From positions 62,001 through 126,000 of the forward strand of contig NZ_CP044130.1 of NCBI RefSeq assembly GCF_009617995.1: a stretch of DNA of 64,000 nucleotides. Direction: 5' to 3'. This DNA comes from Halomicrobium sp. LC1Hm. GTDB taxonomy: Archaea; Halobacteriota; Halobacteria; Halobacteriales; Haloarculaceae. Below the pieces are notes generated by a model. That model worked only from the letters and a program-made list of their open reading frames with translations, made no database searches and was not told the origin of the DNA. Made by a program: the position numbers and the translations under genes. Shown one piece after another: positions 17,509 through 46,367 of this stretch; the stretch's first letter is position 1, and the number at the start of each line of letters is the position of its first letter.

Positions 17509-18165
17509 TTACGAGCTGAGGAAGTAGTTGCGAGCCCGTTTGGTTGCACTGGAGACTTTCTGGACGGCCTCGGTCGGTAGCTCGTCGCTTCTCGTGTTCT
17601 CGACGTTTTCGAAGGCCGTCTCCACGTCGGCGAGGATGTTGCGGTACCGCTCGTCGGAGATCGAGGCCTCGTGCATCATCGCTTTGAGTTCGCGCAGTTC
17701 GCTCTTGACCTCGTTGGTCGACCGAACGTCGCAGATCTTGAGCACGAGGTCGGCCTTGTACGGGATCGGACGATCGTCCCCACGAGACTGCTCGACCTCG
17801 ACTTCGAGTGCCGTACTGTAGCCGATCTGTACCGTGCAGTCGCCGGTGATCAGCGAGGGGTCACCGTTGGAGAGATCGATCTCGCCGAAGGCGTTTTGCT
17901 GTACCGTCTCGCTGCTCGACCCCGCGTCCTGGACGTACAGCTGGCTGTCCTCCTTGTAGAACTCGATGTATCCGGGCTCGCCGTCGTCGTCGAACTCGCG
18001 GGACACGGAGATGTCGTGGACGCCCAGCGAGGTGACGGACCCGTCCTTGTCGGCGACGACCGCTTCCCCGCGCTCGGGGACGCGATAGACGCGTACAGCC
18101 GACTCGTCTGTGACGGAGAGAGTCGCCGTCGACTCGGGATCGGCCGCACGGATGGTTGCACGCAT
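17509..18165 (-). CDS. FHA-like domain protein with helical C-terminus
   Basis: A 218-residue cytoplasmic protein. Residues 1-130 are beta-rich, with the order of elements seen in FHA phosphothreonine-binding domains: [12 protein letters not shown], then an [16 protein letters not shown] segment in place of D.gS.NGT..N, then [13 protein letters not shown] and CTVQIGYS. Residues 145-218 are helical ([20 protein letters not shown]...). It is convergent with the Vps4-like gene and divergent from the ferredoxin-kinase gene. A phosphopeptide reader next to a Thr kinase is a common pairing, so it may read phosphorylation by that kinase. The FHA call is by pattern and degenerate in places. Confidence 0.5.
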
Positions 18166-18278
18166 ACCAGGTAGTTAGCAACCGGTCAATTCAATCTTAC
18201 GAGTCGAGCGCGAACCGACGAATCAGCCCCGAAAACACCCGAAAAGGATTAATGAGGATCAGCCAGACAGAGAAGACA

Positions 18279-20297
18279 ATGAGCGATCGGAAACTGCCCG
18301 ATGTCGAAGCGGTCACCAGTCCCCCGCGTCGGTCGTTGCGATACGAGCACATCGAGACCAGCGACGAGCCGATCGGGCGAGGGGGACAGGCCGTCGTGTA
18401 CGAGGGACGGGTCACCGACGAGGAGCCACCGGACAGAATCGCACTCAAGGAGCCACCCCGAGCCGGGACGCTCACCGGCGACGCGATCGAACGGTTTCTC
18501 AGCGAAGCCCAGCGCTGGGAGACGGTCGACGGTCGAGAACGGAACAAGCAGCGCTGGACGGAGTCGGAACACATCGTCGGCGTCGTCGACACCGGCGACC
18601 GGCTGCCGTGGATCGCCATCGAGTACATGGGCGGTGGCACGCTCGCCGATCGCCTCGACGCGAGCGACGGCGGACTGGGACTGCCCCACGCGCTCTGGAT
18701 CGGCGAATGTCTCTGCCGGGGCCTGGCCGTCGCCCACGCCTACGGGATCGTCCACCTCGATCTCAAACCGGCGAACGTCCTCTTTCGCGAGACGGTCGCC
18801 GGGACGTGGGACCTCCCCAAGATCGGCGACTGGGGGCTGTCTCGGGTCCTCTCGGAGCAGACCGGAACGATGGACGGACTGTCGGTTGCCTACGCCGCGC
18901 CCGAACAGTTCGAGTCCGACGAGTTCGGCGATCCCGACACGCTGACGGACGTGTATCAGGCCGGTGCGATCGTCTACGCGCTGCTCACCGGCGAACCGCC
19001 TTACACCGGGAGTCAGACCGGCATCATGCACGACATCGTCTACGGAGACCCGCCGACGCCGCCCAGCGAGTACCGTGACGACGTGACCGAGGCCATCGAC
19101 GCGGTCGTGCTGACGGCGCTAGAGACCGAGAAGCGGTCGCGATACGAGAGCGTCCAGTTGTTCGAGCGGGCGCTACACGCCGTCCGGAGCGGTGGGCGGC
19201 TGCCGACGATCATCGCAGAACGGGTCGAGGACGCAGGTGGAGCCCCCGATAGGGAAAGGAGACGGGCAGACCAGTCCGGCGGATCCGAGAGCGACCGGGA
19301 CGAACAGACGAGCGAATCGGGGCGTGACCACCACGAGGAATCAGACACGACGGCACAGCGGTACACGACGACGGTGCTCGCAGTCGTCGACGAGCTCACC
19401 GACAGCGGGGAGCGGACGGTGTCCAGCGAGACGGTAGCAGAGCACGTCGAGGGCGGACGACAGTCGGTGCTGGATCGGCTCGACGAACTCAAGCAGGCGA
19501 ACCTGGTCGAATACACCTCCGACGGCCCCTCCGGCTACCGGCCGACGCGGCGCGGGGTCGAGCGCGCGAAGACGATCGAAGTCGACGTGTCGAGGACGGA
19601 CCAGAGTGGGGAGAGCGACGGTCGTGAGACCGGCGGGTCTCAGCACAGAGCGTCGAGCGTCGGTGTCGAAGCCGTCTACGAGGCGATCAGGGAGCGATCG
19701 CGGCGCGGAACCACGCCAGTTTCGAGCGTCGAGCTGAGCCGAGATCTCGACGCGAGCCGCGGGGCCGTCCTCGACGCGCTCGACGATCTGAAAGACGACG
19801 GCCGCGTGGCGTATCGCTCGGACCCAAACGGCGGCTACCACCGCACGGGCTCGCGGAGTTCGGTCGAGCGATCGAGCGACCGGGGTTCGACGGTGTCGTC
19901 CTCGCGGACGGCGACCGTCGAGTACCTGAACGACGAAGTCGTCGCAGATCGGGGGTGGGACCCGCGAGGCGGACGGGCGTTCACGCGGGCGGCCGCGAGC
20001 GACCTCCCGCCGGAGGACTACGGGACGATCGAGGTCGAGCGTGACGAGTACGTCCTCGAAGCCGCCGAGGCGGCGGGGCTCGATTGGCCCTTCTCCTGTC
20101 GTGCCGGGGCGTGTACGAACTGCGCGGCCGTCGTCGTCGAAGGCGAGATCGACATGGAGATGCAGCAGATCCTCGCCGACGAGGAGGTCGAACAGGAGGA
20201 CATGGTCCTGACCTGCATCGGGACGCCCGCGTCGGACCACGTCAAGCTCCTGTACAACGTCAAGCACAGAGACCGGCTCCAGAACAGAGTGATCTGA
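18279..20297 (+). CDS. Ser/Thr kinase fused to two winged helices and a [2Fe-2S] ferredoxin
   Basis: A 672-residue cytoplasmic fusion; the ATG at 18279 is preferred over upstream in-frame ATGs at 18156 and 18252. Kinase (about 28-302): glycine loop [15 protein letters not shown] lysine near 57, catalytic [11 protein letters not shown] (159-169), DWG for DFG (184-186), AAPEQF (206-211). Two winged-helix-like units follow (about 355-435 and 465-535), each ending in a GY wing. Residues 545-672 are a complete halophilic plant-type ferredoxin: starts [11 protein letters not shown], ligands CRAGACTNC plus a later LTC, ends LQNRVI, including the acidic insertion typical of haloarchaeal ferredoxins. 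The kinase may therefore be redox-gated, or phosphorylation may control an electron carrier. No frameshift is needed to join the parts. Confidence 0.9.
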
Positions 20298-20463
20298 GAG
20301 CGGCGACGCTCGGGTGGCACCGACTCGGACTGGCCGGCAGGAGTTATATGCGTTCCGGGCGACGGTGATCCATACCGTTGGCTATACTCGTTTCGAGCGG
20401 GACGACTCTCGTGATATCGAATCGCTTTACAGGTGGACAGACGCCAGTATCGGGAGGAACACG

Positions 20464-21708
20464 ATGCTCGGAATCCTGACCGTCGTCGGTATCGGCGTCG
20501 CCGTGTTCGTGGGGTTCAACATCGGCGGCTCGTCGACGGGAGTGGCGTTCGGCCCGGCGGTCGGCTCACGCCTCGTCCGGAAGACGACAGCGGGAGCCCT
20601 GTTCGTCGCGTTTGGCTTCCTGGGTGCCTGGACGGTCGGGCGAAACGTCATCGCGACGATGAGCAGCAGTATCGTCCCGGCAGCCCAGTTCACGCCCGTC
20701 GCGAGCGTCGCAGTGCTGTTCTTCACGGGCGCGTCGCTGTTGATCTCGAATCTCTACGGCGTCCCGGCCTCGACCTCGATGACGGCCGTCGGCGCGATCG
20801 TCGGGCTGGGTCTGGCCTCTGGCACCCTCAACCAGGCGCTCATGTTCGTGATCGTCTCGGCGTGGATCGTCGCGCCGCTTTTGTGCTTCGTCATCGGCGT
20901 CGTCGTCGGACGGTACGTCTATCCGTACCTCGACCGCTACGTCGCGTTCACGAAGTTCGACCTCCACTTCGTCCAGCTCGACCGATCGGGGACGATCCCG
21001 CGTCCGTATCTGAACGTGAACGCGTCGCTACAGGACATCGTCGGCTCGCTGCTGGTGATCGTGATCGCCTGCTACATGGCGTTCTCGGCGGGCGCGTCGA
21101 ACGCGGCCAACGCCGTGGCCCCGCTGGTCGGGGAAGGTGGCTCGCTCACCGTCAACCAGGGCGTCTTGCTCGCGGTGGCGGCCTTCGGGCTGGGCAGTTT
21201 CACCATCGCTCGGCGGACCCTGGAGACGGTCGGCGACGACATCACGGAGCTGCCGATTCTCGCGTCGCTGATCGTCTCCGTGGTCGGTGCCTCGGTGATT
21301 ACGGTGCTGTCTTACTTCGGGATTCCCGCGAGTCTCGCGGTCAGCACGACCTCGACGATCATCGGACTGGGCTGGGGCCGGGCGAGTCGAGCCGCGACGC
21401 TGACGGAGTTGGCGACGCCGACCCCCGAGCGTCCGGATCTGGAGGTCGCGACGGGCGCGCTGGTCACCTCACGCGCCGAGGAGGCACCCGCCGGTCCGAC
21501 CATCGGAGATATCGCCCGCGAGGAAGAGCCCGCAGAGAAGCCCACAGACATGCCGGACGTGCCAGACGTGGGCGCGGAGGGGCCGGCGGATCTCGACGAG
21601 CGGAGCCTCTTCGATCCGGGCGCGGCGAAGCGGATCGTGACGATGTGGCTGTTGACGCCGTCGCTGGCGATCGCCGCCTCGTATCCGGTCTTCGCGTTCC
21701 TGCTGTGA
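20464..21708 (+). CDS. PiT-family inorganic phosphate transporter
   Basis: A 414-residue membrane protein from the ATG at 20464. It has the two inverted PiT signatures: FNIGGSSTGVAFGPAVGSR near the N-terminus, in place of GxNDxxN, and MAFSAGASNAANAVAPLVG near residue 205. GVPASTSMT and GIPASLAVSTT are the paired re-entrant segments. A hydrophilic acidic loop of about 90 residues (305-395) precedes the last membrane helix. It should take up phosphate with a cation. The Asp of the first signature is missing (NIGGSS), seen in some archaeal homologues, so activity or ion specificity may differ. Confidence 0.85.
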   Translation: MLGILTVVGIGVAVFVGFNIGGSSTGVAFGPAVGSRLVRKTTAGALFVAFGFLGAWTVGRNVIATMSSSIVPAAQFTPVASVAVLFFTGASLLISNLYGVPASTSMTAVGAIVGLGLASGTLNQALMFVIVSAWIVAPLLCFVIGVVVGRYVYPYLDRYVAFTKFDLHFVQLDRSGTIPRPYLNVNASLQDIVGSLLVIVIACYMAFSAGASNAANAVAPLVGEGGSLTVNQGVLLAVAAFGLGSFTIARRTLETVGDDITELPILASLIVSVVGASVITVLSYFGIPASLAVSTTSTIIGLGWGRASRAATLTELATPTPERPDLEVATGALVTSRAEEAPAGPTIGDIAREEEPAEKPTDMPDVPDVGAEGPADLDERSLFDPGAAKRIVTMWLLTPSLAIAASYPVFAFLL

Positions 21709-21742: not shown

Positions 21743-24700
21743 TTACTCCCGGTCGTCCAGCTCGGAGAGACACGTCCGGAGGTCGTCGGCCACCTCGCCG
21801 TCGGCCCGCGCTGCCCGACGTTCGAGTCGCTCGCGGTGGGCAGCGAGTGACCCCGGATCGATCGCCGCGAGCGCGGCGAGGTCCTCGCCGGCCCGCTCTC
21901 TCGCCCAGCGGTCCGAGTCCGACAGCGCCGCGAGCAGAGTCGCCACCGCTCGCGAGCGGACCGTCGCGTGCCGCGTCGCCAGTCGCCCGAGCAGCCAGAC
22001 GGCGAGCCGGCGACGCGCTGGCCCGCCGCGTTCGTACCGGACGACCATCGCGGTGGCTACCGTCTCGGGCGTGCGTTCGGCGTGGCCCAGCAGGTCGAGG
22101 ACCGCGTCGGCGATCGCCGCCTGCGTTTTCGGTTCCCGGCCGGTCTGTCCCAGCAGGTGACCGATCGCCTCGTCGGCCGGGAGCACCGCGGTGGTTCCCA
22201 GCGTCGAGAGCGCCTCGATCGCGTTGACCCGCACCTCCCAGTTGTGGGCCTCACAGGCGTCGAGCAGCGTCGCGACGCCGCGGCGGTGCAGTCGCTCGTC
22301 GTCGCTCAGCGGGAGGAGCCGGGTGAGCGACGCGAAGACGGCCTCGTAGCGGTGGAGGTTCACCGACTGGGAGAGCAGTGCCGCCAGAACGTCGTCGCGG
22401 TCGGCGGGCGAGAGGGCCGTCGCGACGTGCTCGAACGAACGCGTCCGGGTGGGCTCGTCGGCGAGGACGAGAAACTGCGCGATCACCGTCGGGTCGAGGG
22501 CCGGTTTCGTCGGCTCATCCGGCCACGATTCGAGGATCGTCTCGTAGGACGAGTCCCCGCCCAGCCCCGCCGCTCGCGCGGTCACCGTCGCCAGTCCGTC
22601 CGTGGTGAGGCTGTCCCGCGGGAGATCGTAGTGCGGGGACGCCGCCGCGGGCGAGGTGAGAAAGTCGACGGTCTCGGCCAGCGCCCACCCGAACGACGCT
22701 GTCGCCGTGTGGTTGGCCCGCGCACAGGTGGCGACGACGCGAAAGAGCCAATACGTCGACAGCGGGCTGGTCGTGATATCCTGGAAGTTGGTGACGATCT
22801 CGTCGTCGTACTCCTCGTGGAGGCGCTCGCCGACGGCGTTTAGCTGTCCGTGGACGGTGCCGGGCGTGTCCTCGGCGGCGGCGACGAGCAGGCGACCGGC
22901 CGCCCGGGTGACACACGGCGGCGTCTCGGAGACGAGCGCAGTGAGTGGCCAGCACCGCGAGCCGTCCTGACATTCCTCGTCTCGGGCGCGCACGAGCGAG
23001 TCGAGCGTCACCGCGTCGTGGGTCCAGAGCATCGACACCACGGGGAAGAGTGCGGGCCAGGTCACGCGATCAGCCCCGATGCGATCACACAGCGTGTCGG
23101 CGACGGGTGCGAGCGCCTCGGGATCGGCGTGTCCGATGCGGGCGAGTCCGCCGGCCGCGGAGCGCCTGACGCCGCGTTCGCGTGCCCGCAGGTGGGTCGT
23201 CAGTTCCGCGACCACGCGGTCGGTGACCGACGGCTCGGTCGCGCCACAGCGGCCCAGCGCGTGACAGGCCGCGACCGCGACGTACCGCGGTCCGTCGACC
23301 GCGTCGACGAGGGCGTCGACGAGCGACGGCGTGACGGAGAGCGCGTCCCCGACCAGCGCGGCGGCCGTGTGTGCGGCCTGGGCGCGAACGGCACCGGACG
23401 GATCTCGCAGTCGCTCGATCACCACGGCCGCGAGCGCCGCCGACTCGTCTCCGCCGCGGACACGCAACGCGGACAGCGCAACGTCTCGGACGCCGGGCGA
23501 CGGCGCGGCGGCGTACTGACAGAGCAGCGGGGCGACGCGCTCGGCCGGCGGTACCGACGAGCGGGCTCGCCCGCCCGGCTGATCTGGACGGGGCGCGAGC
23601 GTCGACAGCGCGCCCAGAACGGCGGTCGGCGCGGCCGTCTCGGAGAGGGCGACGGAGCTCGCGAGGAGGTGCTGGCGAACGGCCGGGCGCAGCGACGGGT
23701 CGCGTGCGGCGATCGAGACCAGCCGCTCACAGGCGCGTCGACAGCGAGCGCGAGCGGTCGAGGCGAGACGGGACGCGATCTCGGCGACCGTGTCCGTCGT
23801 CGCCGCGCTCGGATCGACCGGGTCCGGTCGATCGGTGGCCGCCTCGCCGTCCAGCAGCCCACGGGCGGCATCCCTGACGGCGGGGTGGGGATGGCGACGC
23901 CAGGCGTCGGTGCCAGGGAGTGTGTCGGCGCGTCCCATCGTGTCCAGCAGCGACGCCGTCAGCTCGCCGTCGTCGGTCCAGAAGCGGTCGGCGAGCCAGT
24001 CCCGTGCCGGGACGGTCTGGGGAGCGTGCTCGGCCAGCGCCGCCGGCCACGCCGTCTGGCTGGCCCGTTCACGAGAGCGAGCGCCGTCGGGGAACGGCGA
24101 CCACCCGGTTCGACACCGAAGCGAGAGCCGCGGGTGGGCCGTGACGAGAGCCGCCAGCCGTTCGGCCCGCGGAGTCGAGAGGGACTCTGCGGGCGGATAC
24201 GAGCAGAGGATCTCGGCGACGACGACCGGGTCGTGATCGACCAGCAGGGAGAGACACGCGAGCAGCGGCGTCTCCTCGCGCCGCTCGGCCAGCGAGTGCA
24301 GGCGGTCGCGCGCCCGTCGCTGCACCGCTTCGTCGCCGCCGAGAAAGAGCGCCGTCGAGAGCCACGCGAGCAGCGGCGGGGAGACCGACGCCGATCGAAC
24401 GACAGCCTCGATACGGCGAACCGTCTCCGGGGCGAGTCGCCCGCCCTCGGCGACGGCGGTCGCGAGTGTCTCCGCGACGCTCACGTCACCCTCCTCGGAG
24501 AGGAACTCGACCAGCGTGGGGGCGGCGTCGGTGACGGCCCGTGGCGTGGCCTCGGCCAGTCGCTGGAGCGGGCTGGACTCGGGCTCCGAGTCGACGATGT
24601 CGAGGCCGTCGCCGTCGTCCTCGGCGTCACGACGCTCGCGGAGGACGCGACACTGCACGGCGACCGGTCCCAGACGATCCCGAGCGTCCGTCTGCCCGGT

Positions 24701-26212
24701 CGCGACGAGCACCGCCACGGCCCGCGGCCGCACCGCGGGATCGTAGGCGGCGACGGGCCAGGCAATTTGGCCGAGGACCGGAGACAGAGCCGGGGTGTCC
24801 TCGGCGAGTCGCTCGAACACCGACAGCACGCGCCGCCGGACGTGCTCGTCCTCGTCGGCGAGCAGCGACTGCAGGATGCCGACGGCCGCGAGTCGATGGC
24901 TGTCGGCGTGACAGGCGATCGTCTCGCAGATCGAGAGGCCGGCGTGTCGGAGCCCGCTGTCCTCGGCGTCCCGCAGAGTGCGTGCGACCTGGAGGTGCCG
25001 GTCGCGGTCGACGACGCCGACGAGTGCCGATCCCAGTTCCTCGATCGGGTCGGGAACGCCCAGCCCACCGTGGGGCGAGAGCTGGAACCACACGAGCACG
25101 TCGACGAGATACCGCGCCGTCTCCGGGTGGTCCGAACGCAGTGCGCGGGCGGCCGCCAGGAGCGCGTCGACGGCGGCCCCGGCGACGTCGTCGTCCCCGT
25201 CAGTCAATCGCCCCACTGCGTAGCGCAGGAACCGGTCGCGGTCGAACGCCGACGGCTCGAACGTGTCCGCGATCGCGTCGAGGGCCGCGATCCGGACCCG
25301 CCGGTCGTCGTCCGCCGTCGCGGTCAGGAACAGCGCCGAGTACGTCTCCGCGAAGCGGGGCTCGTGTCGCGCCACCTGCCCCAGCGTCTCGACGGCCGCC
25401 GCTCGGACCGCCGGGTCCGAGTCGGTCCCACGGGCGGCGACGCGGTCCAGAAACGGCTCGACGCGGGCCGGCGCTGGGACGCCGGTGTCGAACTTCGCCC
25501 CGCGGCCAGCGGTGTCGCCGAGGGTCTCGACGGCGGCGGCCCGAACCTCGGGAGACGGGTGATCGAGCAGCGACGCGACCGTGTCCAGTCCCGCGAGGTG
25601 GTCGGGCAGGAACTGCCCGATCCGGCCGAGCGTCCCGAGGGCCTCACAGACGGTGGCCGGGTCCTCACTGTCCAGATCCCAGACGAGGCCGGCGACGAGC
25701 GGACGGAGCATGGCCGGTTCGCTCGCCGCGATCCGCACGACCGCCCAGGCGGCCTCGACCCGGTGTTCCGAGTAGTCGTTCGCGGTCAGCGCGACCAACG
25801 GCCCCAGCAGTGGCTTCACCACGCCGGGAGCCGCCGTCCCGATATCGCCCAGCAGCGCCGAGAGCGCGGCGTGGTCGATGGCGGAGTCGTCGGGATGTGC
25901 GAGCGGTCGGCGGAACGTCCCGACCAGCGGCGTGAACGCGCGCGGTCGGTCACAGCCGAGGTCGCCAAGCACCGCCAGTTCGGCCCGCGTCGGGATCGCA
26001 CCCGGCCCGATCGAGGACTCGACCGCGTCGAAAATCTCGGTCGCCCGCTCGGGCTGCGAGTCGGCGGCCGCCGTGAGTGCCGCGAGTGTGGCGCGTCGCC
26101 GCCCGATCGTCGCCGCGTCCAGCGCCGGGAGCGCGCGGTCGATCACGGTCTCGCCAGAGACGCGCCCGGTCTCGAACCCGACGCGGAGCGCCCGCGGCGT
26201 CCGGTCGGACAC
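21743..26212 (-). CDS. Giant HEAT-repeat scaffold protein
   Basis: A 1489-residue protein starting with GTG at 26212, 2 bp after the vWA gene stop. The whole length is made of helical hairpins of HEAT/Armadillo type, for example DPAVRAAAVETLGQVARHEP and SPEVRAAAVETLGDTAG in the N-terminal third, with similar units to the C-terminus (DSDRWARERAGEDLAALAAI). No catalytic motif, signal peptide or membrane segment is visible. Such solenoids bind proteins, so it may be a substrate adaptor or platform for the MoxR-vWA pair encoded immediately upstream in the same apparent operon. Confidence 0.8.
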   Translation of the reverse strand: MSDRTPRALRVGFETGRVSGETVIDRALPALDAATIGRRRATLAALTAAADSQPERATEIFDAVESSIGPGAIPTRAELAVLGDLGCDRPRAFTPLVGTFRRPLAHPDDSAIDHAALSALLGDIGTAAPGVVKPLLGPLVALTANDYSEHRVEAAWAVVRIAASEPAMLRPLVAGLVWDLDSEDPATVCEALGTLGRIGQFLPDHLAGLDTVASLLDHPSPEVRAAAVETLGDTAGRGAKFDTGVPAPARVEPFLDRVAARGTDSDPAVRAAAVETLGQVARHEPRFAETYSALFLTATADDDRRVRIAALDAIADTFEPSAFDRDRFLRYAVGRLTDGDDDVAGAAVDALLAAARALRSDHPETARYLVDVLVWFQLSPHGGLGVPDPIEELGSALVGVVDRDRHLQVARTLRDAEDSGLRHAGLSICETIACHADSHRLAAVGILQSLLADEDEHVRRRVLSVFERLAEDTPALSPVLGQIAWPVAAYDPAVRPRAVAVLVATGQTDARDRLGPVAVQCRVLRERRDAEDDGDGLDIVDSEPESSPLQRLAEATPRAVTDAAPTLVEFLSEEGDVSVAETLATAVAEGGRLAPETVRRIEAVVRSASVSPPLLAWLSTALFLGGDEAVQRRARDRLHSLAERREETPLLACLSLLVDHDPVVVAEILCSYPPAESLSTPRAERLAALVTAHPRLSLRCRTGWSPFPDGARSRERASQTAWPAALAEHAPQTVPARDWLADRFWTDDGELTASLLDTMGRADTLPGTDAWRRHPHPAVRDAARGLLDGEAATDRPDPVDPSAATTDTVAEIASRLASTARARCRRACERLVSIAARDPSLRPAVRQHLLASSVALSETAAPTAVLGALSTLAPRPDQPGGRARSSVPPAERVAPLLCQYAAAPSPGVRDVALSALRVRGGDESAALAAVVIERLRDPSGAVRAQAAHTAAALVGDALSVTPSLVDALVDAVDGPRYVAVAACHALGRCGATEPSVTDRVVAELTTHLRARERGVRRSAAGGLARIGHADPEALAPVADTLCDRIGADRVTWPALFPVVSMLWTHDAVTLDSLVRARDEECQDGSRCWPLTALVSETPPCVTRAAGRLLVAAAEDTPGTVHGQLNAVGERLHEEYDDEIVTNFQDITTSPLSTYWLFRVVATCARANHTATASFGWALAETVDFLTSPAAASPHYDLPRDSLTTDGLATVTARAAGLGGDSSYETILESWPDEPTKPALDPTVIAQFLVLADEPTRTRSFEHVATALSPADRDDVLAALLSQSVNLHRYEAVFASLTRLLPLSDDERLHRRGVATLLDACEAHNWEVRVNAIEALSTLGTTAVLPADEAIGHLLGQTGREPKTQAAIADAVLDLLGHAERTPETVATAMVVRYERGGPARRRLAVWLLGRLATRHATVRSRAVATLLAALSDSDRWARERAGEDLAALAAIDPGSLAAHRERLERRAARADGEVADDLRTCLSELDDRE

Positions 26213-26214
26213 GG

Positions 26215-28116
26215 TCAGGCCTCCGTCGAGAACAGCGCCCTGACGAGGCGCTGGATCGTTCGTGCGAGGGTGTCCGTCTCCGCGTGGACGATGCGGTCGA
26301 AGTACTCCGTGTGGGTGCCCGGTTCCGACCCGATGTAGACGCCGAACACCGGGACGGTACAGGCCGCCAGTTGAGACCGGTAACGGTCGGGGTGGTCGGG
26401 CTCGCCGTCGGTCACGACGACGACAAACGGGTGAGACCCCTGCCCGTCGTCGAGGCGCTCACGGGCGACGGCGACGGCCGTCGAGAGCGGCGTCCCCCAG
26501 TCTGCGCGTTCGGTCATCAGGCGATCGACGTGCTCGGACGGGCGACCCCCGAAGGGGAGTTCCAGGCACGGGTACCCCTCCCAGATCGACAGCACGGACG
26601 CGTCGACCCCGACCGCGAACAGCGCGTGGACGAGCTGGGCCGTCGCGGTCTCGGCCGTCCGGATCGGTTCGCCGTCCATCGATCCCGACCGGTCCAGCAC
26701 GACCAGACAGGAGTAGTCTTTGGCCGTCCCGGACTCCCGGCGGGTGAAGACCCGCTGGGTCCCGTGGCTCGCGTCGACGAGTCGTCGCCCGTCGAGTCGG
26801 CCGGTGCGATGGCCGGGCGCGTCTCTGGGACGGCGCTCTCGACGAAGCTGCGTCGAGAGGTCCCGCTGGAGCTGCTTCGAACGCCCGACCGCGTCGTCCC
26901 AGCGGTCGCGGTCGCCACCGTCCTCGGCGGGGTCGACGACGATCACTTCTTCGAGGGCCGTCGACTCGTCGTCGACGACGGCGAGCAGTTCGCGAGCCTC
27001 GCGTTCGAGGGGCGACCGGCCCGAGCCCGCCCGGTTCGACTGGGCGCGCACGCGCTGTCGCCGGACTCGTCTGACCGTGTCGGCCTCGACGCTGCCCGGC
27101 GGCCGACGGTCCCCGTCTCGATCGGCGACGCGTCCCGCATCGTTGGCCTCAGAGGCAGAGCGCCCGTCGGCAGAGCTGTCTCCGGCGACGTGGGCGCTGG
27201 CTGCACCGTCGTCTGGCAGCTGGTCGGCCGCGTCGGCGGTCCACCCGGCGCGGGCCCGCGCGTCGCTGGGCCGGACCGGCGCGGTCTGGAGCCGGCCGTT
27301 CTGTCGCGGCGGGAGCCCCGCGAGGGTGTCTCTGGCGGTCTCGAAGAACTCGGAGGCCCGCTCGACCCGTCGGGTGCCGTCGGGCTCGGAAAGCACGTCC
27401 GCGACGAACTCGTCCATCGCCGGGACGAGCTCGCGGACCGCCTCCCGCTGGCCGTCGTAGACGACGCGCCGGTCGTCGTCCGGGTCGACGATGGCGGCGA
27501 AGCGACCGCTATCGACGAAGCCACGGTCCAGCAGTCCCACGGCCAGGGCTTCGAAGACGGTGTAGGACTGGACCGGCTCGCCGTCGACGGTCGCGAGGTC
27601 GAACAGCTCGACGTACGCGCGGTGTCGCTCGTCGGCCCGCGAGACGAGCACGTCGTTGAGGACGAGAAAGTCGTCGCTGACGCTGAACTCGTTGGCGATC
27701 TGGGTCTCGACGACGCCGTCCTCGGCGGTGTTGTACACCATCCGAAACAGGTCGCGCCAGCGCCCGTCGACACGCTCTAAACGGTCGCCGAACCGGTCGA
27801 AATCGGAGTAGTAGACGTGGCCCAGTTCGTGGAACAGAAAGGCGACCTGGATCGAGCGATCCCACAGCCCCGGCGGCAGCGCCGTGCCGGGCTGCTCGTA
27901 TTTCTCCGTCGGCAGCACGATCTCGTAGGCGTCCGGACTGCCCTCGGCCGGCCGAGCGAACGCTCGCTGCTCGTCGAAGGCGATCGAGATCGTCGTCTCC
28001 CTGTCCGTACACAGCGACGCGAGCCGTTCGAGCTCTCGGCGGCGCTCGCTGGACGCTCGCTCGGGCGTCGAGAGCGCGGCCAGATCCGCCGCCTCGGTCT
28101 GTGCTGTCAGTCGCAT
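26215..28116 (-). CDS. vWA-domain protein with HELGH metallopeptidase-like N-terminus
   Basis: A 633-residue protein. Residues 85-200 hold an HExxH motif (HELGH, 96-100) followed by YYSDFDRFGDRL and a downstream ENxxxxE-like EDGVVETQIAN, a pattern seen in CobT/vWA proteins that bind zinc or keep a dead peptidase fold. A disordered Arg/Ala-rich middle (about 280-460) leads to a vWA domain (467-633) with an intact MIDAS: DRSGSM (475-480), a Thr in WGTPLS and VTDGEPD. It directly abuts the MoxR ATPase gene (1 bp). MoxR-vWA pairs act as metal-insertion or complex-remodelling chaperones, the vWA partner recognising the client. Client unknown. Confidence 0.85.
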   Translation of the reverse strand: MRLTAQTEAADLAALSTPERASSERRRELERLASLCTDRETTISIAFDEQRAFARPAEGSPDAYEIVLPTEKYEQPGTALPPGLWDRSIQVAFLFHELGHVYYSDFDRFGDRLERVDGRWRDLFRMVYNTAEDGVVETQIANEFSVSDDFLVLNDVLVSRADERHRAYVELFDLATVDGEPVQSYTVFEALAVGLLDRGFVDSGRFAAIVDPDDDRRVVYDGQREAVRELVPAMDEFVADVLSEPDGTRRVERASEFFETARDTLAGLPPRQNGRLQTAPVRPSDARARAGWTADAADQLPDDGAASAHVAGDSSADGRSASEANDAGRVADRDGDRRPPGSVEADTVRRVRRQRVRAQSNRAGSGRSPLEREARELLAVVDDESTALEEVIVVDPAEDGGDRDRWDDAVGRSKQLQRDLSTQLRRERRPRDAPGHRTGRLDGRRLVDASHGTQRVFTRRESGTAKDYSCLVVLDRSGSMDGEPIRTAETATAQLVHALFAVGVDASVLSIWEGYPCLELPFGGRPSEHVDRLMTERADWGTPLSTAVAVARERLDDGQGSHPFVVVVTDGEPDHPDRYRSQLAACTVPVFGVYIGSEPGTHTEYFDRIVHAETDTLARTIQRLVRALFSTEA

Positions 28117-29052
28117 CTACAGTCGTTTGTCGATGAGCGTCCGGACCAGCGACTCGTCGTACTCGTCGACGCGCGCGACGAGTTCGCTCCTGGCCGCCTC
28201 CCCGACGGTCATGAAGTCGTCTTCGACGAACCGGGCGATCCGAACGAGTTCCCGGGTCGTGACCGGCGTCGACAGCTCGCCGTCGACGTACGCCTCCCGG
28301 AGTCGGCTCGCGAACGACACCAGGTCCCGGATCTGTGCTTCTTTTCCCCTGTCGAGGTCCGTCCGGTCGAAGACGAGTTCGACCTCGACCGATTCCGGGA
28401 GATAGGAGAGTTTGACGTGGCGAAACCGGTCCTCGAAGGCGTCGTTCAGCTCGTAGGTCCCCTGATAGCCGGGGTTCGAGGTCGCGACGACGCGAAACTC
28501 CTCGTGTGGGACGATCTGCTCGCCGGTCTGTGGGATCGTCAGCGACCGGGTCGCGCGCTGTTCCATCACGGCGTTGAGAGCGGCGACGGTGTTGGCGTCG
28601 GCGGCGTTGATCTCGTCGAGCAAGAGGACCGCCCCCTCCCTGACCGCGCGAGTGAGCGGCCCGTCGATCCACTCCGTGACCGTCTCGCCGCCGTCGCCGC
28701 TCACGAGGTGGAGGTGGCCAAGCAGGTCCTCGCGGTACGTCGTCTCCGACAGCGTCACGCGGTACAGCGGCCGGTTGGTCATCGCACAGACGTACCGCGT
28801 GAGAAAGCTCTTGCCCACGCCGGGCGGGCCCTTGAGGACGACGTTCATCCCCAGTTCCAGCGCCCGCGTGACGATCTCGACGTCGGTCCGATCGCCCTCG
28901 ATCTGGCGGTGGTGGTAGTCGTCTCGCCCAACGCCCGGCACCTTCTCGTGGCCGACGTCTTCGAGCACCGAGAGTTCGCTGAAGGTCTCGTCCGTCCGGG
29001 AGCCGACGGTACGACCGTCGGCGTCCGACTCGGCCGCCGTCTCCGGGCTCAT
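28117..29052 (-). CDS. MoxR/CbbQ-family AAA+ ATPase
   Basis: A 311-residue ATPase. Walker A GPPGVGKS (75-82), Walker B VLLLDEI (142-148), sensor-1 ATSNPGYQG (190-198) with an arginine in EDRFRHV, and a C-terminal helical lid. The HLHL insert before the EWIDGPLTRAVREG segment is characteristic of MoxR/NorQ/CbbQ ATPases. It stands first in a tight run with the vWA and HEAT genes, with no intergenic space, and lies 174 bp downstream of the kinase-propeller gene in the same direction. Confidence 0.9.
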   Translation of the reverse strand: MSPETAAESDADGRTVGSRTDETFSELSVLEDVGHEKVPGVGRDDYHHRQIEGDRTDVEIVTRALELGMNVVLKGPPGVGKSFLTRYVCAMTNRPLYRVTLSETTYREDLLGHLHLVSGDGGETVTEWIDGPLTRAVREGAVLLLDEINAADANTVAALNAVMEQRATRSLTIPQTGEQIVPHEEFRVVATSNPGYQGTYELNDAFEDRFRHVKLSYLPESVEVELVFDRTDLDRGKEAQIRDLVSFASRLREAYVDGELSTPVTTRELVRIARFVEDDFMTVGEAARSELVARVDEYDESLVRTLIDKRL

Positions 29053-29226
29053 AGACGCCGAGCGACTCCCTTCGACGCGGCGGTGGTGTTGCGATCGTGC
29101 GACGGCACGGACGGCGTTGGTGAAAAGACCACGTTGGGTGCCACGTTCCGGTTCGACTACTAAATGCTTTGTTCCGGGGTGTGATCGACACCCATCCGGG
29201 AGGGACTGTGCGGTCCCGACGCGAAG

Positions 29227-31797
29227 TCAAGACTGTTCGGCGAGTGCGTAGAGAGTCCCCTCACGCGTCGCGGCGAAGAGGTGCCCGTCGACGGGGACGG
29301 GCGAACAGGCGACCGGCGCGTCGATGGCCTGTCGCCACTGCTCGCGGCCAGTCGCGCCGTCGAACGCGACGACCGTACCGTCACCGAGGCCCGTGTACAC
29401 GGTCCCGTCCGCGATCGCCGGGGTCGTGTCGGTTCCGAGGCGGCTCGTCGATCCGTCGAACCCGTAGGAAACGACCTGTTCGCGGCTGTAGATCTCGATG
29501 CCTCTGACCTCGGCGTCCGTCACGTAGTAGGCCGTCCCCTCGGCGACGGCTGGCAGCGACCGCACCCCACGGGCGAGCGTGTCCGAGACCGTCTCCCGCC
29601 GGAGATCGACCAGCGTGTCGCCGATCAGGACCGTCCCGGAGTTGTGGGGTGCGACGATCGGCGTTCGGATGCGTCCTCGTCCGCTCAGGTCGACGCTGGC
29701 TTGCTCGGAGCCGCCCTTGGTGAGGACGTGGACGACGCCGTTGTCGTCGCCCACCAGCAAGCGCCGCCGGCCGTACTGGGTCACCGGCACGCGGATGCCC
29801 GGCGTCGTCTCCACGGTCCACATCTCGTTGCCGGTCTCGGTGTGAATCGCCCTGACAGCGCCGGAGCGAGACGTGACGACGACGCGGTCGTTCGTCACCA
29901 CGGGCGGCGCGTAGATCCCGCTCCCGGTGTCGGAGGCCCAGCGCTCGGTGCCGTCTTCGCGGTCGATCGCGTACACGTGCGCGTCCTTGCTGGCCACGTA
30001 GAGCGTGTCTCCAGCCACCGCTGGCGCGGCGACAACGGCGTTCTCCGTCTCGAAGTGCCACCGTTTCTCCCCGGTTCGCGCGTCGAGTGCGAACACCAGC
30101 CCGTTCGTGGTGCCGGCGTAGACGACACCGCTCGCGACGACCGGCGGCGCTTCGAGCTCGCTTCCGATCTCCGACTCCCAGACCACGTCCGGCGAGTCGT
30201 CGGGCCCCTGCTGGTCCGGCGTGTGGAACGTCCGTCCTCGATCGTAGCCAAATCGCGGCCAGCTGCCGCGTATCGATCGGTCGCTGGCGGTCGCCGACGA
30301 CGATTCGAACGCAGCCCGGGCGTCAGAGCGTCGGGTGGCGTCGGACTCGCCAGCCTCTGCCGCGTCGGCCTGGTCGAGTTCGTCGACCGGCACTACCTGC
30401 GAGATATCACTCGCCGTCGGATCGGATCCCTCGTAGCGAAGTGCGACCGCGTCACCGGTCTGGAGGGTCGCCTCGATACCGCTGAGGTAGAACACGCCGT
30501 CGTTGGCGAGGTCGGTCTCGACGGCCGCCTTGCTGTCGCCGGTCGTGTCGACGACGACGCCCTCGCCGAACGTCTCGCTGTCGCCCACGGCGGGCGGGTC
30601 CGCGTCGCTCCCGACGGGCTGGACCTCGATGATGTCGCTCGCTCCCGGATCGTCTCCCTCGTAGTAGAGCGAGACCCGTTGGGTGGGTTCGAGATCGTGG
30701 TCGGTATCGCTCAGATAGAAGGTCCCGTCGTCTGCCAGTTCGGTCCTGATCGCCGCTGCCCCGCGGGCAGTGGTATCGAGGACCACGCCAGTGCCGACGC
30801 CGACGCCGTTCCAGTCGGCCGTCTGCGTCGTCTCCGAACGGGAGTCAGGTCGGGTCTGGGCGGTCGGGTTCGGCTCCGGGTCGTCGGAACGGTCGTCGTC
30901 TCGCCCGATCGAACGCAGGTCGTTCCGGACCTGCAGCATCGCCTCGTAGCGGTCGTCGGGGTCCTTTGCCAGCATCGTCAGGAGAACGTCGTCCAGCGCC
31001 GACGGCAGCGCGGGTCGACGCTCGCTGGGCGGGACGGGATCGTTCTGCAGGATGCCTGTGATCAGTGCCGCTTCGGGAGCAGACTCGGGACCGTCGACGA
31101 ACGGGTGTGTCCCCGTGAACAGTTCGTACAGGACGATTCCCAGCTGGAACTGGTCGGTGAGCTGGTCGGTCGACTCGTTGTGGGCCTGTTCGGGCGCGAC
31201 GTACTGTGGGGTGGTGACGCCGACGCTGTCGGAGTGGTTCAGGAGCGTCCGGGCGAGCTCCCAGTCGGCGATCTTGGGCACGTCCCACTGTTCTCCTGGC
31301 GTCTCCCGAAAGAGGATATTCTCGGGCTTCAGATCGTGGTGGATCAGGCCGCCGCCGTCGTGGTGTGCGTACCAGACGGCGTCGGCGAGTCGCTGGGCGA
31401 CCCAGAGCTTGCCCTCGACGGAGCGCTCCTCCGTGTACTCTCCGAGGTCCCCGCCGTCCATGTACTCCATCGCGACCCACGGCACGTCGGCGTTGTGGTG
31501 GAGCCACGGCAGCGGGCTCTCGCCCCAGTCGACGACGCCGACGATGTGAGGGTGGTCGGCGAGCTGGGCCCATCGCTTGCCCTCCCGTCGAAACGAATCG
31601 AACACGTCCCCGCCCAGGGTCCCGTGGGTCGCCGGGTGTTTGACTGCGATCGGATCGTCCGATCCGACCCCGATCCGGTGGACGACCGTCGTGGGAGTTC
31701 GGCCGATCACCGCCTCGTGATCGAACGAGTCGGGCGACAGCGACCGCCGACTCGGACTCTCGACGGTCGAAGGGTCCGGTTCCCGTGAGTCACGCAT
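29227..31797 (-). CDS. Ser/Thr kinase with tandem beta modules and C-terminal PQQ propeller
   Basis: An 856-residue protein, no signal peptide. Kinase (about 25-295): lysine in IAVKHP (near 53), HHDLKPENILF (153-163), DWE (178-180) where DFG is expected, APEQ (201-204). The glycine loop reads IGRTPTTVVHR and lacks the second and third glycines. Two tandem modules of about 65 residues (about 331-395 and 410-471) share VVLDTT...FYLSDT...YYEGDDP-like order. From about 520 to the end, PQQ-type propeller blades recur (VYAGTTNGLVFALDARTGEKRW, LYVASKDAHVYAIDREDG). The propeller may bind ligand or proteins to control the kinase. Divergent from the HEAT-kinase gene. Confidence 0.88.
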   Translation of the reverse strand: MRDSREPDPSTVESPSRRSLSPDSFDHEAVIGRTPTTVVHRIGVGSDDPIAVKHPATHGTLGGDVFDSFRREGKRWAQLADHPHIVGVVDWGESPLPWLHHNADVPWVAMEYMDGGDLGEYTEERSVEGKLWVAQRLADAVWYAHHDGGGLIHHDLKPENILFRETPGEQWDVPKIADWELARTLLNHSDSVGVTTPQYVAPEQAHNESTDQLTDQFQLGIVLYELFTGTHPFVDGPESAPEAALITGILQNDPVPPSERRPALPSALDDVLLTMLAKDPDDRYEAMLQVRNDLRSIGRDDDRSDDPEPNPTAQTRPDSRSETTQTADWNGVGVGTGVVLDTTARGAAAIRTELADDGTFYLSDTDHDLEPTQRVSLYYEGDDPGASDIIEVQPVGSDADPPAVGDSETFGEGVVVDTTGDSKAAVETDLANDGVFYLSGIEATLQTGDAVALRYEGSDPTASDISQVVPVDELDQADAAEAGESDATRRSDARAAFESSSATASDRSIRGSWPRFGYDRGRTFHTPDQQGPDDSPDVVWESEIGSELEAPPVVASGVVYAGTTNGLVFALDARTGEKRWHFETENAVVAAPAVAGDTLYVASKDAHVYAIDREDGTERWASDTGSGIYAPPVVTNDRVVVTSRSGAVRAIHTETGNEMWTVETTPGIRVPVTQYGRRRLLVGDDNGVVHVLTKGGSEQASVDLSGRGRIRTPIVAPHNSGTVLIGDTLVDLRRETVSDTLARGVRSLPAVAEGTAYYVTDAEVRGIEIYSREQVVSYGFDGSTSRLGTDTTPAIADGTVYTGLGDGTVVAFDGATGREQWRQAIDAPVACSPVPVDGHLFAATREGTLYALAEQS

Positions 31798-31934: not shown

Positions 31935-34805
31935 GTGATGGACACCGACGAGGATTCGACTCGTGAGATCGACAGTCTGCGGCGTGACGCCGATGCCGCT
32001 CCGGCCCGGGTAGATCTCGACGCGGCCGGTCGGTTTCTCGATAGCAACCAGCCCGAGAACCGCCAGACAGCGACCTACGTGTTCAAGCAGGTCGCCAAAT
32101 CGGACGCACGGCGAGTGAGCGGCTATCTCGACAGTCTCGAACCGCGTCTCGACGATTCGAACGGCAAGACGCGAAACTTCACGCTGTTCGCGTTCAGCGA
32201 GGTCGTCGAAGTCGCCCCCCAGCGGGTGAACGACTATCTCGACGCGATCGAGCCACGGCTCGGCGACGAGAGCGAAAATACGCGAAATCTCGCGACCTAC
32301 GTCTTCAAGGAGGTCGCCCAGGAGGACCCCCGGCAGGTGATCGACTCGCTTGGCGCAGTCGAACCACGACTCGACGACGCCGAGCAGTCGACACGGAACT
32401 TCGCGGTCTCGCTGTTCAGCGAAGTGGTCGAAGTCGACCCCCGGCGAGTGAGTGACTATCTGGACGCGATCGAACCGCGACTCGGCGACGAAAGCGAGAG
32501 CACGCGAAATCTCGCGACCTACGTCTTCGGAGAGGTCGCTAGGGAAGAGCCCCGACAGGTGATCGACTATCTGGACACGATCGAGCCACGACTCGACGAT
32601 GCCAAACGATCCACGCGGAACTTCGCGACCACCGCGTTCAGCGAAGTCGTCGAAGTCGCCCCCCGACCAGTGAGTCGTTATCTGGGCGCGCTCGAACCAC
32701 GACTCGACGACGAGAGCGAGAACACGAGACACCTCGCGGCCTACGTCTTCAAGGAGGTCGCCAAGGAGAAGCCGCGGCACATGAGCGGCTATCTCGACGC
32801 GCTCGAAGACTGCCTCAACGATCGGGAAGAGAAGACGAGGAACTTCGCAACGTACGTCTTCAAGCAAGTCATCAAAAAGGAGCCACGCCTCGCGTATGAC
32901 TATCTCGACGCGCTCGAAGCCCGTCTCGACGATCAGGGCCAAGAGACGAGAAACTTCGCAGCCTACGTCTTCAAGGAAGTCTCCAAGGAAGATCCACGGC
33001 TGACGATCGACTATCTCGACGCGCTCGAAGATCGCCTCGATGACGGAAGCCAAAGGACGAGAAACTTCGCAACCTACGTCTTCAAGCAAGTCGCCAACGA
33101 GAAACCGAACCAGGTGCTCGACTATCTCGACGCGCTCGAAGACCGCCTCGACGATGCGAGTGGGAATACGCGGAACTTCGCGACCACCGCGTTCGGCGAA
33201 GCCGTCGAGGTTGCCCCCCAGCGAGTGAGTGGTCATATAGACGCGCTCGAACCACGGCTCGACGACGAGAGCGAGAATACGCGAAACCTCGCGGCCTACG
33301 TCTTCGGAGAGGTCTCCAAGGAAGAGCCCCGGCAGACAATCGGCTACTTAGACGCACTCGTACCACGGCTCGACGACCCCAAACGAGCGACGCGAAACTT
33401 CGCGACCACGCCATTCAGAGAGGGCGTCGAGGTCGCCCCCCAGCGAGTGAGTGGCTATCTGGACGCGCTCGAACCACGGCTCGACGACGAGAGTGAGAAC
33501 ACGCGGAATCTCGCGACCTACGTGTTCACCGAAGTGGCCAAAGAAGAGCCCCGGCAGGTGATCGACTATCTGGACGCGATCGAACCCCGACTCGACGATC
33601 CGAAGCGATCGACACGAGAATTCGCCGCCTCCACGTTCGCAACCGTATCCGAAGAAGATCCGTCACAGGTCGTCGACTACCTCCCGTCGATCGTCCCACT
33701 GCTGGCAGACGGGAACGACACCGTCGAGGACTGCGCAGGATCCTGCTTCGCCCAGGTCGCCAGACACGATCCCGAACCGTTGCGAGACCTGATCCGCTCT
33801 TCCGAGTCGAAGCAGTTCGGAGAGGCGGCGGTCGAGCGAGTAGCAGCAATTCTGGCTGCAAACACGTCACAAGACGACGAGGACGACATCGCAGAGTCGA
33901 CACAAGACGGCGAGGACCACATCGCAGAGTCGAGCCACGTCGACGAACACGTCGACAAACGGCGACCGGCAGACATCCCAGGTGCGCCAGAAGCGGAGAT
34001 CGCCCTCGACGAGATCGAAGAGGAACGGACGATCGGACAGGGAGGCAACGCCGACGTGGTGGAAGCGTCGGTTCCGGGGACGGTGGACACGTCGATCGCG
34101 ATCAAGAGACCGCGGATGTCGGGGACGGTTCACGGCGAGACGATCGAGCGGCTGCTCGACGAAGCCGAGCGGTGGGAGAGGCTGGACGGACACGACCACA
34201 TCGTCGGCGTCGTCGACTGGGGGGCGAGCCCGGTCCCGTGGATCGGAATGGAGTTCATGGACGGCGGACACCTCGGCGAACGGGCCGGGGAGATGAGTCT
34301 GGCCCAGAAGCTCTGGACCGCGCTCGCAGTCACGAAAGGCGTTCGCCACGCCCACAAACACGGCGTCGCTCACCTCGATCTCAAGCCCGAGAACGTCCTC
34401 TTTCGGACGGTCGAAGACGCCTGGGACGTGCCGAAAGTAGCGGACTGGGGACTCTCGAAGCAGTTGCTCGAACACTCCCAGAGCGTCCAGGGACTCACGC
34501 CACAGTACGCCGCACCGGAGCAGTTCGACGACGACTACGGGACCAGCGATCACAGCACGGACATCTATCAGCTCGGCGCGGTCTTCTACGAGCTGTTCAC
34601 CGGACAGCCGCCGTTCGACGGGAATCCATCGAAGGCGATGTACCAGATCCTGGAGAGTGAGCCGACGCCGCCCAGCGAGATTGCAGCGGTCCCACCACGC
34701 GTCGACGAGATCCTGTTGACGGCACTGTCCAAATCGAAGGCCCAGCGGTACGACGATATTCTCTACCTTCGGGACGCTCTACAGGAAGCGTGTGAAGACC
34801 TGTAG
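31935..34805 (+). CDS. HEAT-repeat Ser/Thr kinase (fifteen 37-residue repeats)
   Basis: A 956-residue fusion. Residues 42-596 are fifteen consecutive 37-residue helical hairpins with consensus RNFATYVFKEVAKEEP then YLDALEPRLDDESENT, followed by a decaying sixteenth. An acidic hinge with short repeats (DDEDDIAESTQDGED..., about 635-675) leads to the kinase (689-956): IGQGGNADV, AIKRP, HLDLKPENVLF (815-825), DWG (838-840), AAPEQF. Repeats are unusually uniform, which suggests recent duplication or strong selection on spacing. The curved solenoid may sense a partner protein or clamp kinase substrates. It is divergent from the propeller-kinase gene across 137 bp, so the two may share control. Confidence 0.9.
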   Translation: MMDTDEDSTREIDSLRRDADAAPARVDLDAAGRFLDSNQPENRQTATYVFKQVAKSDARRVSGYLDSLEPRLDDSNGKTRNFTLFAFSEVVEVAPQRVNDYLDAIEPRLGDESENTRNLATYVFKEVAQEDPRQVIDSLGAVEPRLDDAEQSTRNFAVSLFSEVVEVDPRRVSDYLDAIEPRLGDESESTRNLATYVFGEVAREEPRQVIDYLDTIEPRLDDAKRSTRNFATTAFSEVVEVAPRPVSRYLGALEPRLDDESENTRHLAAYVFKEVAKEKPRHMSGYLDALEDCLNDREEKTRNFATYVFKQVIKKEPRLAYDYLDALEARLDDQGQETRNFAAYVFKEVSKEDPRLTIDYLDALEDRLDDGSQRTRNFATYVFKQVANEKPNQVLDYLDALEDRLDDASGNTRNFATTAFGEAVEVAPQRVSGHIDALEPRLDDESENTRNLAAYVFGEVSKEEPRQTIGYLDALVPRLDDPKRATRNFATTPFREGVEVAPQRVSGYLDALEPRLDDESENTRNLATYVFTEVAKEEPRQVIDYLDAIEPRLDDPKRSTREFAASTFATVSEEDPSQVVDYLPSIVPLLADGNDTVEDCAGSCFAQVARHDPEPLRDLIRSSESKQFGEAAVERVAAILAANTSQDDEDDIAESTQDGEDHIAESSHVDEHVDKRRPADIPGAPEAEIALDEIEEERTIGQGGNADVVEASVPGTVDTSIAIKRPRMSGTVHGETIERLLDEAERWERLDGHDHIVGVVDWGASPVPWIGMEFMDGGHLGERAGEMSLAQKLWTALAVTKGVRHAHKHGVAHLDLKPENVLFRTVEDAWDVPKVADWGLSKQLLEHSQSVQGLTPQYAAPEQFDDDYGTSDHSTDIYQLGAVFYELFTGQPPFDGNPSKAMYQILESEPTPPSEIAAVPPRVDEILLTALSKSKAQRYDDILYLRDALQEACEDL
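32058..33722 (+). repeat. In-frame 111-bp tandem repeats inside the HEAT kinase
   Basis: Fifteen units of 111 bp encode the 37-residue HEAT hairpins. Units alternate between two sub-types (RNLATYVF.EVA and RNFATT.F.E.VEV), so the ancestral duplication was probably of a two-unit 222-bp block. Several blocks still share long identical DNA runs. Confidence 0.85.
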
Positions 34806-45558: not shown

Positions 45559-46367
45559 TGCCTCCGGTGCCATCTGCTGACGGCCTTTTGCCCGACCCAG
45601 AAGAGCTGCATGCTCATTTGTTAACACAGTTTGAATTCCTAAAGGGCCGGAATAGTACACTTAGCCGGCATAGCGACGAATTCGATCAAATATACTCTGA
45701 TTTAGAAACATCTGATCCGAGCAATTGGAGTTTAGATATCACCCCCAATTGGGCTATCCCGTTAGAACTCCCCGATTTTATCGTTGAAACAAGACCTAGC
45801 CGGGATTTTGCGATTGAAAATGGATGGGCTATCGTTGGGGGAAATATTGATGTTTCCGATGGCAAATATACGGACTACGCGTTCCATCTAAGTTTTCTCG
45901 CGAGTAAAGAAGAGGAGGTCAGAGGTGAACCCTCCAACGGCCCTTGCTGCTGGAGGGCGGAAGAACAAGACTGGGATTACAGAGTTGCGAAGCAGTATCA
46001 TTTCGACATCGACCCAGGACGGAATCGGAACGAACCGAAACCTGTCGCCCACTTCCAATCGCAAGGCAGTTTCGAACAGGCTCGACTGCCTCCCGGACTT
46101 CGACACCAAGATATTCATTACTGCTCGACACCGTTAGACAAGCCCCGACTGGCCCATCCGCCGATGGACCCCATCCTCCTACTGCAGATAGTTTCGGAAC
46201 AATACGGGGGCCCCGCGTCGATGTTCTCTGAACACTGGGATCCGATGGTTGTAAGGGCCGAGTCAACGCTCTGGTCGGGGTACTATAGTGGTGTTTCAGA
46301 GCATCTCGGAGACGACGATCGGTCGGCTCCATGTAATATCCTCATTTCGAATGACCGGATCGATTAA
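45558..46367 (+). CDS. Unknown protein, third gene of the GHKL operon
   Basis: A 269-residue protein. Start overlaps the receiver gene by 1 bp (TAATG), so it belongs to the same unit. I recognise no family. Visible features: HFDIDPGRNRNEPKPVAHFQ in the middle (the pattern HFD...HFQ could be a substrate site), a Pro-rich RLAHPPMDPILLLQIVSEQY, two cysteines in GPCCW, and no signal or membrane segment. It may be the effector of the three-gene system. Base composition is AT-richer than the flanks. Confidence 0.65.
   Translation: MPPVPSADGLLPDPEELHAHLLTQFEFLKGRNSTLSRHSDEFDQIYSDLETSDPSNWSLDITPNWAIPLELPDFIVETRPSRDFAIENGWAIVGGNIDVSDGKYTDYAFHLSFLASKEEEVRGEPSNGPCCWRAEEQDWDYRVAKQYHFDIDPGRNRNEPKPVAHFQSQGSFEQARLPPGLRHQDIHYCSTPLDKPRLAHPPMDPILLLQIVSEQYGGPASMFSEHWDPMVVRAESTLWSGYYSGVSEHLGDDDRSAPCNILISNDRID

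Follow-up and report, generated by a model that had tools for sequence, protein, structure and literature searches.

What defines the published MoxR-vWA ternary conflict systems is a VMAP, iSTAND, FtsH or propeller component, together with specific features of their MoxR and vWA proteins (PMC7159879). A MoxR-type ATPase beside a metallopeptidase-vWA protein is also borne by viruses, and the function of the viral pair is disputed, the candidates being cobalt chelation, virion assembly and peptide processing. It has been read as a cobalt chelation module (PMC8651126), and a jumbo-phage pair of MoxR and a metallopeptidase-vWA protein as chaperone plus peptide processing (PMC7824862). Here we analyse a haloarchaeal locus in which such a pair adjoins a giant HEAT-repeat protein. 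The closest known relatives of the pair are the CobS/CobT-like proteins of tailed haloviruses (HVTV-1 gp59/gp57, and those of HCTV-1 and HCTV-5).

The locus in Halomicrobium

The window, by which we mean the whole stretch of 64,000 nucleotides that was analysed, is C2:62001-126000, on the 223,917-bp contig C2 of a two-contig Halomicrobium genome. Most closely related to it are H. katesii DSM 19301 and pHmuk01, the 221,862-bp plasmid of H. mukohataei. The features of the locus are as follows (window coordinates, strand, Pfam matches in brackets).

18156-20297, +, fusion of Ser/Thr kinase, winged helices and haloarchaeal 2Fe-2S ferredoxin (Pkinase 2e-23; Frdxn_Halo 3.6e-53, above cut-off)
20314-21708, +, PiT-type phosphate transporter, convergent with the HEAT giant (PHO4 2.7e-50)
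21743-26212, -, giant HEAT-repeat protein, 1489 aa, GTG start, core gene 3 (HEAT_2 3e-27)
26215-28116, -, HELGH+vWA protein, 633 aa, core gene 2 (VWA_2 2e-7)
28117-29052, -, MoxR-type AAA+ ATPase, 311 aa, core gene 1 (AAA_5 1e-29)
29053-29226, -, kinase-PQQ/MoxR intergenic region with the conserved block CGGAACAAAnCATTT, candidate promoter of the trio
29227-31797, -, Ser/Thr protein kinase, linker and PQQ-type beta-propeller, 856 aa (Pkinase 7e-29; PQQ_2 1e-43)
31935-34805, +, HEAT array with C-terminal Ser/Thr kinase, 956 aa (HEAT_EZ 2e-38; Pkinase 3e-31)

The first-pass annotation of this DNA had described four co-directional genes, from kinase-PQQ to the HEAT giant, the last three spaced by 0-2 bp. 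All four open reading frames lie at that place and on that strand, with their domains confirmed by Pfam, and the measured spacing is 0 bp between MoxR and vWA, 2 bp between vWA and HEAT, and 174 bp between kinase-PQQ and MoxR. Its interval, 21743-31797, excludes two flanking genes, those for the kinase-wHTH-ferredoxin protein (18156-20297, +) and the HEAT-kinase protein (31935-34805, +), the latter divergent from kinase-PQQ. Three Halomicrobium species share the order kinase-ferredoxin / PiT / HEAT / vWA / MoxR / kinase-PQQ / HEAT-kinase. The HEAT-kinase protein is 91% identical in the two other Halomicrobium, and its kinase domain has 46% identity to the kinase domain adjoining a rearranged locus in Halobaculum (see below).

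Other features of the window were recorded in passing. A tight set at 42177-46367 (+) encodes a double GHKL-ATPase protein (788 aa), a receiver-like protein (340 aa, its likeness to response-regulator receivers judged by eye) and an unassigned 269-aa protein; an Eco57I-type methylase lies near it (38837-41200, -). At 49931-51952 (+) a PQQ propeller precedes a kinase domain, so that the order of the kinase-PQQ gene is reversed, and a 1160-aa ORF at 56993-60475 (-) combines HSP70, GrpE-like and Ser/Thr kinase parts in an unusual chaperone-kinase fusion. The homologue of the kinase-ferredoxin protein (18156-20297, +) is annotated merely as 'ferredoxin Fer' in the plasmid table of H. mukohataei. 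A CRISPR array at 53030-56861 (+) holds 59 repeats of GTTTCAGACGGACCCTTGTGGGATTGAAGC, with some spacers duplicated and no cas genes noted beside it.

The conserved unit, its distribution and its relatives

A search of 392 Halobacteriales genomes with MoxR (threshold E <= 1e-60) found ATPases of the trio type in nine, with 11 copies spread over seven genera and four families. All 11 neighbourhoods were inspected, and in each the MoxR gene stands beside genes for a vWA protein and a HEAT giant. The order is MoxR-vWA-HEAT in nine loci, with gaps or overlaps of a few bases, and HEAT-MoxR-vWA in two (copy a of genome G039 and the second copy of Natribaculum luteum). The trio order is kept in three species of Halomicrobium, in G378, G311 and G335, in Natribaculum (2), in Halorubrum BOL3-1 and in G039, where the giant of the HEAT-MoxR-vWA locus also carries a PQQ propeller. 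The plasmid collection PLSDB added the same MoxR-vWA-HEAT trio in Natribaculum longum, and its matches to the giant fall only in the five records that hold a close MoxR. Giants of the MoxR-vWA-HEAT type measure 1423-1516 aa and align collinearly across genera. A profile search of 195 genomes with the giant returned the same four that have the MoxR and no others; since three of these four belong to one genus, it is mainly the spread over seven genera that lends independent support.

Two further loci depart from this pattern. In Halobaculum saliterrae the parts are rearranged: a 1450-aa HEAT protein is encoded divergently from MoxR-vWA, and next to them are two kinases and one PQQ protein. Halolamina pelagica has a degenerate copy. 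Neighbouring genes vary between genera, with no shared client operon nearby.

The conserved unit is three genes (MoxR, HELGH+vWA and the HEAT giant), not four, and it is mobile, sparsely distributed and mostly plasmid-borne. The first-pass proposal, in which MoxR and vWA are a remodelling pair and share a compact transcription unit with the HEAT giant, is borne out at the level of sequence, and the unit is conserved far beyond the genus. Conservation of gene order, suggested in the same annotation as a check, holds for the trio across seven genera and for the kinase-inclusive order only in Halomicrobium. A four-gene operon conserved outside Halomicrobium was rejected as a candidate, as none was found in the flanks of the other trio loci.

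Two loci of the trio type stand side by side in members of two families, Natribaculum luteum (L042/L055) and G039 (L022/L023). In both, one is MoxR-vWA-HEAT and the other HEAT-MoxR-vWA, and the vWA tree groups the copies by type. Tubulin-like proteins are encoded near the trio in Natribaculum (L042:7816-10332) and Halorubrum (L043:1-2948).

By sequence comparison within Halomicrobium, the HEAT giant is the most divergent part of the trio. At its residues ~1-1190 the allele diverges from those of the other two species, and DNA identity in the giant is 78-84% in most blocks against ~95% in the backbone and neighbours. Two main stretches set the window apart from H. mukohataei: this part of HEAT, and the propeller half of the kinase gene with the intergenic region. 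MoxR and vWA have dN/dS values of 0.16-0.19 and the giant one of 0.34, but the dS of the giant is likewise twice as high (0.39 against 0.2), so that allele replacement explains part of the divergence, not selection alone. H. katesii is a mosaic, window-like at the start of MoxR and in the intergenic region and mukohataei-like in HEAT; the two variable parts are therefore not inherited as one allele, and propeller and HEAT as a single common allele was rejected.

The MoxR protein has Walker A GPPGVGKS and Walker B LLLDEIN. Its best-scoring models are of the CobS/GvpN type, far under their cut-offs; its profile matches the structures of CobS, NorQ, CbbQ and midasin, and among viral families it matches PHROG 249, 'porphyrin biosynthesis' (2.7e-55). 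The vWA protein, whose profile matches CobT and which matches PHROG 23795 (9e-70), consists of a zincin-like domain (residues ~20-265, with HELGH at 96-100 and NTAEDGVVE at 129-137), an acidic linker and a C-terminal vWA domain with intact MIDAS (DRSGS, GTPL, TDG). HExxH and DxSxS are present in all 10 vWA proteins, and H96, E97, H100, N129, E132, D133 and E137 are invariant over eight cellular and viral sequences.

Since the full-length vWA protein gave a model with pLDDT 42.5, the N-terminal domain was modelled alone, with viral rows added. The predicted model of the first 275 residues has pLDDT 82 and pTM 0.80. Foldseek found nothing for it in the PDB at E <= 0.001; in a VIA structural search zinc peptidases dominate the top rows, at Z of about 5-6 and at most 6.0 (below 8), and viral CobT-like N-domains match the model with E to 9e-15. 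We regard the domain as likely zincin-like, going by this model, and peptidase activity as possible from its motifs. In a related vWA protein outside the trio group (G045, L025:8974-10878) HExxH reads HAMAH, with the catalytic Glu lost and both His kept, so peptidase activity would not be universal in the wider family.

Haloviruses HVTV-1, HCTV-1 and HCTV-5 encode homologues of the vWA protein adjoining their own MoxR and similar over most of the protein, and HVTV-1 gp57 aligns over nearly its full length. Scans of viral contigs queried with a single vWA protein or MoxR returned no relatives; a scan with the vWA alignment returned five. The trees set the MoxR and vWA proteins of the trio apart from the virus sequence, as groups of their own, and indicate no direction of transfer. 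The pair has the general make-up of MoxR-vWA chaperones (a MoxR AAA+ protein adjoining a MIDAS-bearing vWA protein) and also the narrower one of the viral CobST-like pairs (MoxR beside an HExxH...NxxED...vWA protein of common descent). Judged by these sequence features, it is a member of the viral CobST-like family of MoxR and metallopeptidase-vWA proteins, extended by a fixed HEAT subunit.

A putative remodelling machine and the alternatives

The roles that we assign to the three subunits follow those of MoxR-vWA families (PMC7159879 section 8). By this analogy the trio would be one three-component, ATP-driven protein-remodelling machine, a reading to which we give a probability of about 0.6. 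MoxR would form an AAA+ ring, on which the vWA protein would dock by means of its MIDAS-bearing vWA domain, in the manner of CobS-CobT, NorQ-NorD and RavA-ViaA, while its zincin-like N-domain would cleave or grip the substrate. The HEAT solenoid, translationally coupled to the pair, would be the target-binding or scaffold subunit, in the slot taken by CobN/ChlH or VMAP in other systems, and ATP turnover would then remodel the client held by HEAT, release it or expose it to cleavage. In Halomicrobium (perhaps also in Halobaculum) nearby kinases may tune the trio, and elsewhere a small phosphoesterase accompanies it. Complex formation, remodelling and cleavage are all steps that we infer from the better-known families.

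With a mobile, sparsely occurring unit in which the HEAT giant has diverged most, the likeliest setting would be a conflict, either with viruses or with competing plasmids. A conflict role is nevertheless possible rather than probable. The sparse, mostly plasmid-borne distribution, the divergent third component and the virus relatives argue for it; against it, neither a toxin nor a nuclease effector domain turned up in the three proteins, and conflict systems usually have such a domain. An antiviral role in particular is faintly suggested. In the fullest version, the trio would stand for a class of ternary MoxR-vWA conflict systems peculiar to archaea and sharing ancestry with the tailed-virus chaperone/peptidase pair, in which a giant, allele-switching HEAT receptor selects targets, the zincin domain cleaves them, and plasmid-encoded kinases and the phosphoesterase are optional switches; we consider it unlikely.

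The trio could instead be a dedicated assembly chaperone that matures one complex, like RavA-ViaA, NorQ-NorD and CbbQ-CbbO, with the HEAT giant as adaptor and no conflict role. The solved structures closest to the MoxR profile (midasin, CbbQ, NorQ and CobS) are indeed assembly or activation factors, but genes around the trio change from genus to genus without a common client operon, and a unit found in 9 of 392 genomes, often on plasmids, fits such a task poorly. We rate this reading as rather unlikely.

The kinase bears on another reading, a four-gene operon under a phospho-switch: the kinase-propeller protein would respond to a signal by phosphorylating one of the trio proteins (MoxR, vWA or the HEAT giant). 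The kinase keeps its catalytic motifs (IAVK, HHDLKPEN, DWE), and its place in the gene order is kept in three Halomicrobium species. Around MoxR-vWA in Halobaculum lie two kinases, a PQQ protein and a HEAT giant; the G311 trio, with PQQ and kinase-like genes nearby, makes a weaker case. The HEAT-PQQ fusion of G039, directly upstream of MoxR-vWA, also fits a phospho-switch, as does a small metallophosphoesterase that five lineages (G311, G335, G039, Natribaculum and Halorubrum) encode within ~10 kb of the trio. The metallophosphoesterase family occurs in 9 of 59 relatives, at one or two copies per genome, and is thus rare enough that its clustering near the trio is unlikely to be chance; in Halomicrobium a close homologue is on the chromosome.

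Several results count against the switch and against the kinase as fourth member of the operon, a claim that is not borne out. Kinase-PQQ adjoins the trio only in Halomicrobium, across a 174-bp gap in which CGGAACAAAnCATTT, a 15-base block, is nearly constant in three species amid indels and is the probable promoter of the trio, to judge from this conservation (sigma-70 and terminator scans are uninformative for archaea). A kinase-profile scan found no kinase in the trio flanks of G378, G335 (whose contig starts ~850 bp upstream of MoxR), Natribaculum, Halorubrum and G039. The draft of H. katesii, in which sequence errors are possible, has an in-frame TGA in the kinase-PQQ gene (L034:7261-9825) and a frameshift in the kinase-ferredoxin gene (L034:18751-20795), with the trio intact. 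Moreover, 14 of the 16 kinase genes of the genome above the Pfam cut-off are on the 223,917-bp replicon and two on the 3.1-Mb contig, so that a kinase as neighbour is less informative and the kinase-operon reading is weakened. We hold the phospho-switched operon to be improbable. Kinase-PQQ is a genus-specific neighbour and may be an optional regulator, and control of the trio by phosphorylation is no more than hinted at by these neighbours.

Cobaltochelatase help, with the pair as CobS-CobT working with the CobN of the host as proposed for the viral homologues (PMC8651126), is very improbable. The haloviral homologues are annotated CobS/CobT, and the genome has a CobN. However, that CobN is encoded on the chromosome, outside the trio locus, and the linked giant is a HEAT protein; the NCBIfam CobS model gives MoxR 77.5 bits against a cut-off of 558.6, CobT_C stands at its own cut-off (21.0 bits against 21), the N-domain is zincin-like, and most haloarchaea are without the trio.

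That the pair was captured from a CobST-like cassette of tailed viruses and persists as neutral cargo of the plasmid, for which the near full-length similarity to haloviral proteins might speak, is scarcely credible given purifying selection (dN/dS ~0.16-0.19 for MoxR and vWA compared with the window), strict linkage to the HEAT giant and trees in which the trio is not nested inside viruses.

Comparison with known systems

A remodelling machine made of the trio would share with the MoxR-vWA ternary conflict systems (PMC7159879) the combination of MoxR, vWA and a fast-diverging third component; it differs in that this component is HEAT, with no VMAP, iSTAND or FtsH. Membership in the VMAP, iSTAND, FtsH or propeller systems was tested on their defining features and is not upheld. 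There is no VMAP upstream of MoxR among the Pfam matches of the scanned neighbours, that position being taken by kinase-PQQ in the window or by unrelated genes, and the MoxR motifs of VMAP systems, WxhapG and PsWRxa, are missing, with no tryptophan in the first 66 residues. No effector domain is fused C-terminal to vWA, which ends the protein. As for the propeller system, the vWA protein is without a C-terminal beta-propeller, the P-loop reads GPPGVGKS, not the GXXXTAKS frequent in that system, and the bpMoxR model scores 25.3 bits (cut-off 27). No iSTAND or FtsH gene adjoins the trio, whose neighbours in the window are kinase-PQQ and, beside the HEAT giant, PiT. The PADLOC model set has no model for the trio and gave only generic kinase matches and weak ATPase/HEAT matches; a literature search, mostly without subscription journals, found no description of a MoxR-vWA-HEAT set.

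The chelatases CobN-CobS-CobT and ChlH-ChlI-ChlD resemble the trio in having an ATPase, a MIDAS adaptor and a giant third subunit, but their giant is CobN/ChlH and that of the trio is HEAT. RavA-ViaA, NorQ-NorD and CbbQ-CbbO have in common with it the generic logic of MoxR and MIDAS adaptor; to our knowledge they are without a giant HEAT subunit and without a zincin domain. The jumbo-phage pair (PMC7824862), likened here by its description only, has the same architecture as the trio pair; unlike the trio it is phage-borne, with no HEAT giant described.

If the trio is antiviral, the logic of MoxR-vWA ternary conflict would extend to haloarchaea with a new recognition subunit. With its fixed HEAT partner and no linked CobN, a cellular trio also offers a way to probe the function of viral 'CobST'. 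It would be a compact, mobile archaeal machine of three components with a homologous pair in viruses: the haloviral pair and the trio both place a MoxR-type ATPase beside a HExxH and vWA/MIDAS protein with the same predicted N-domain fold, the former in a tailed-virus genome with no HEAT giant among the annotated surrounding genes, the latter with the giant HEAT subunit as its third component.
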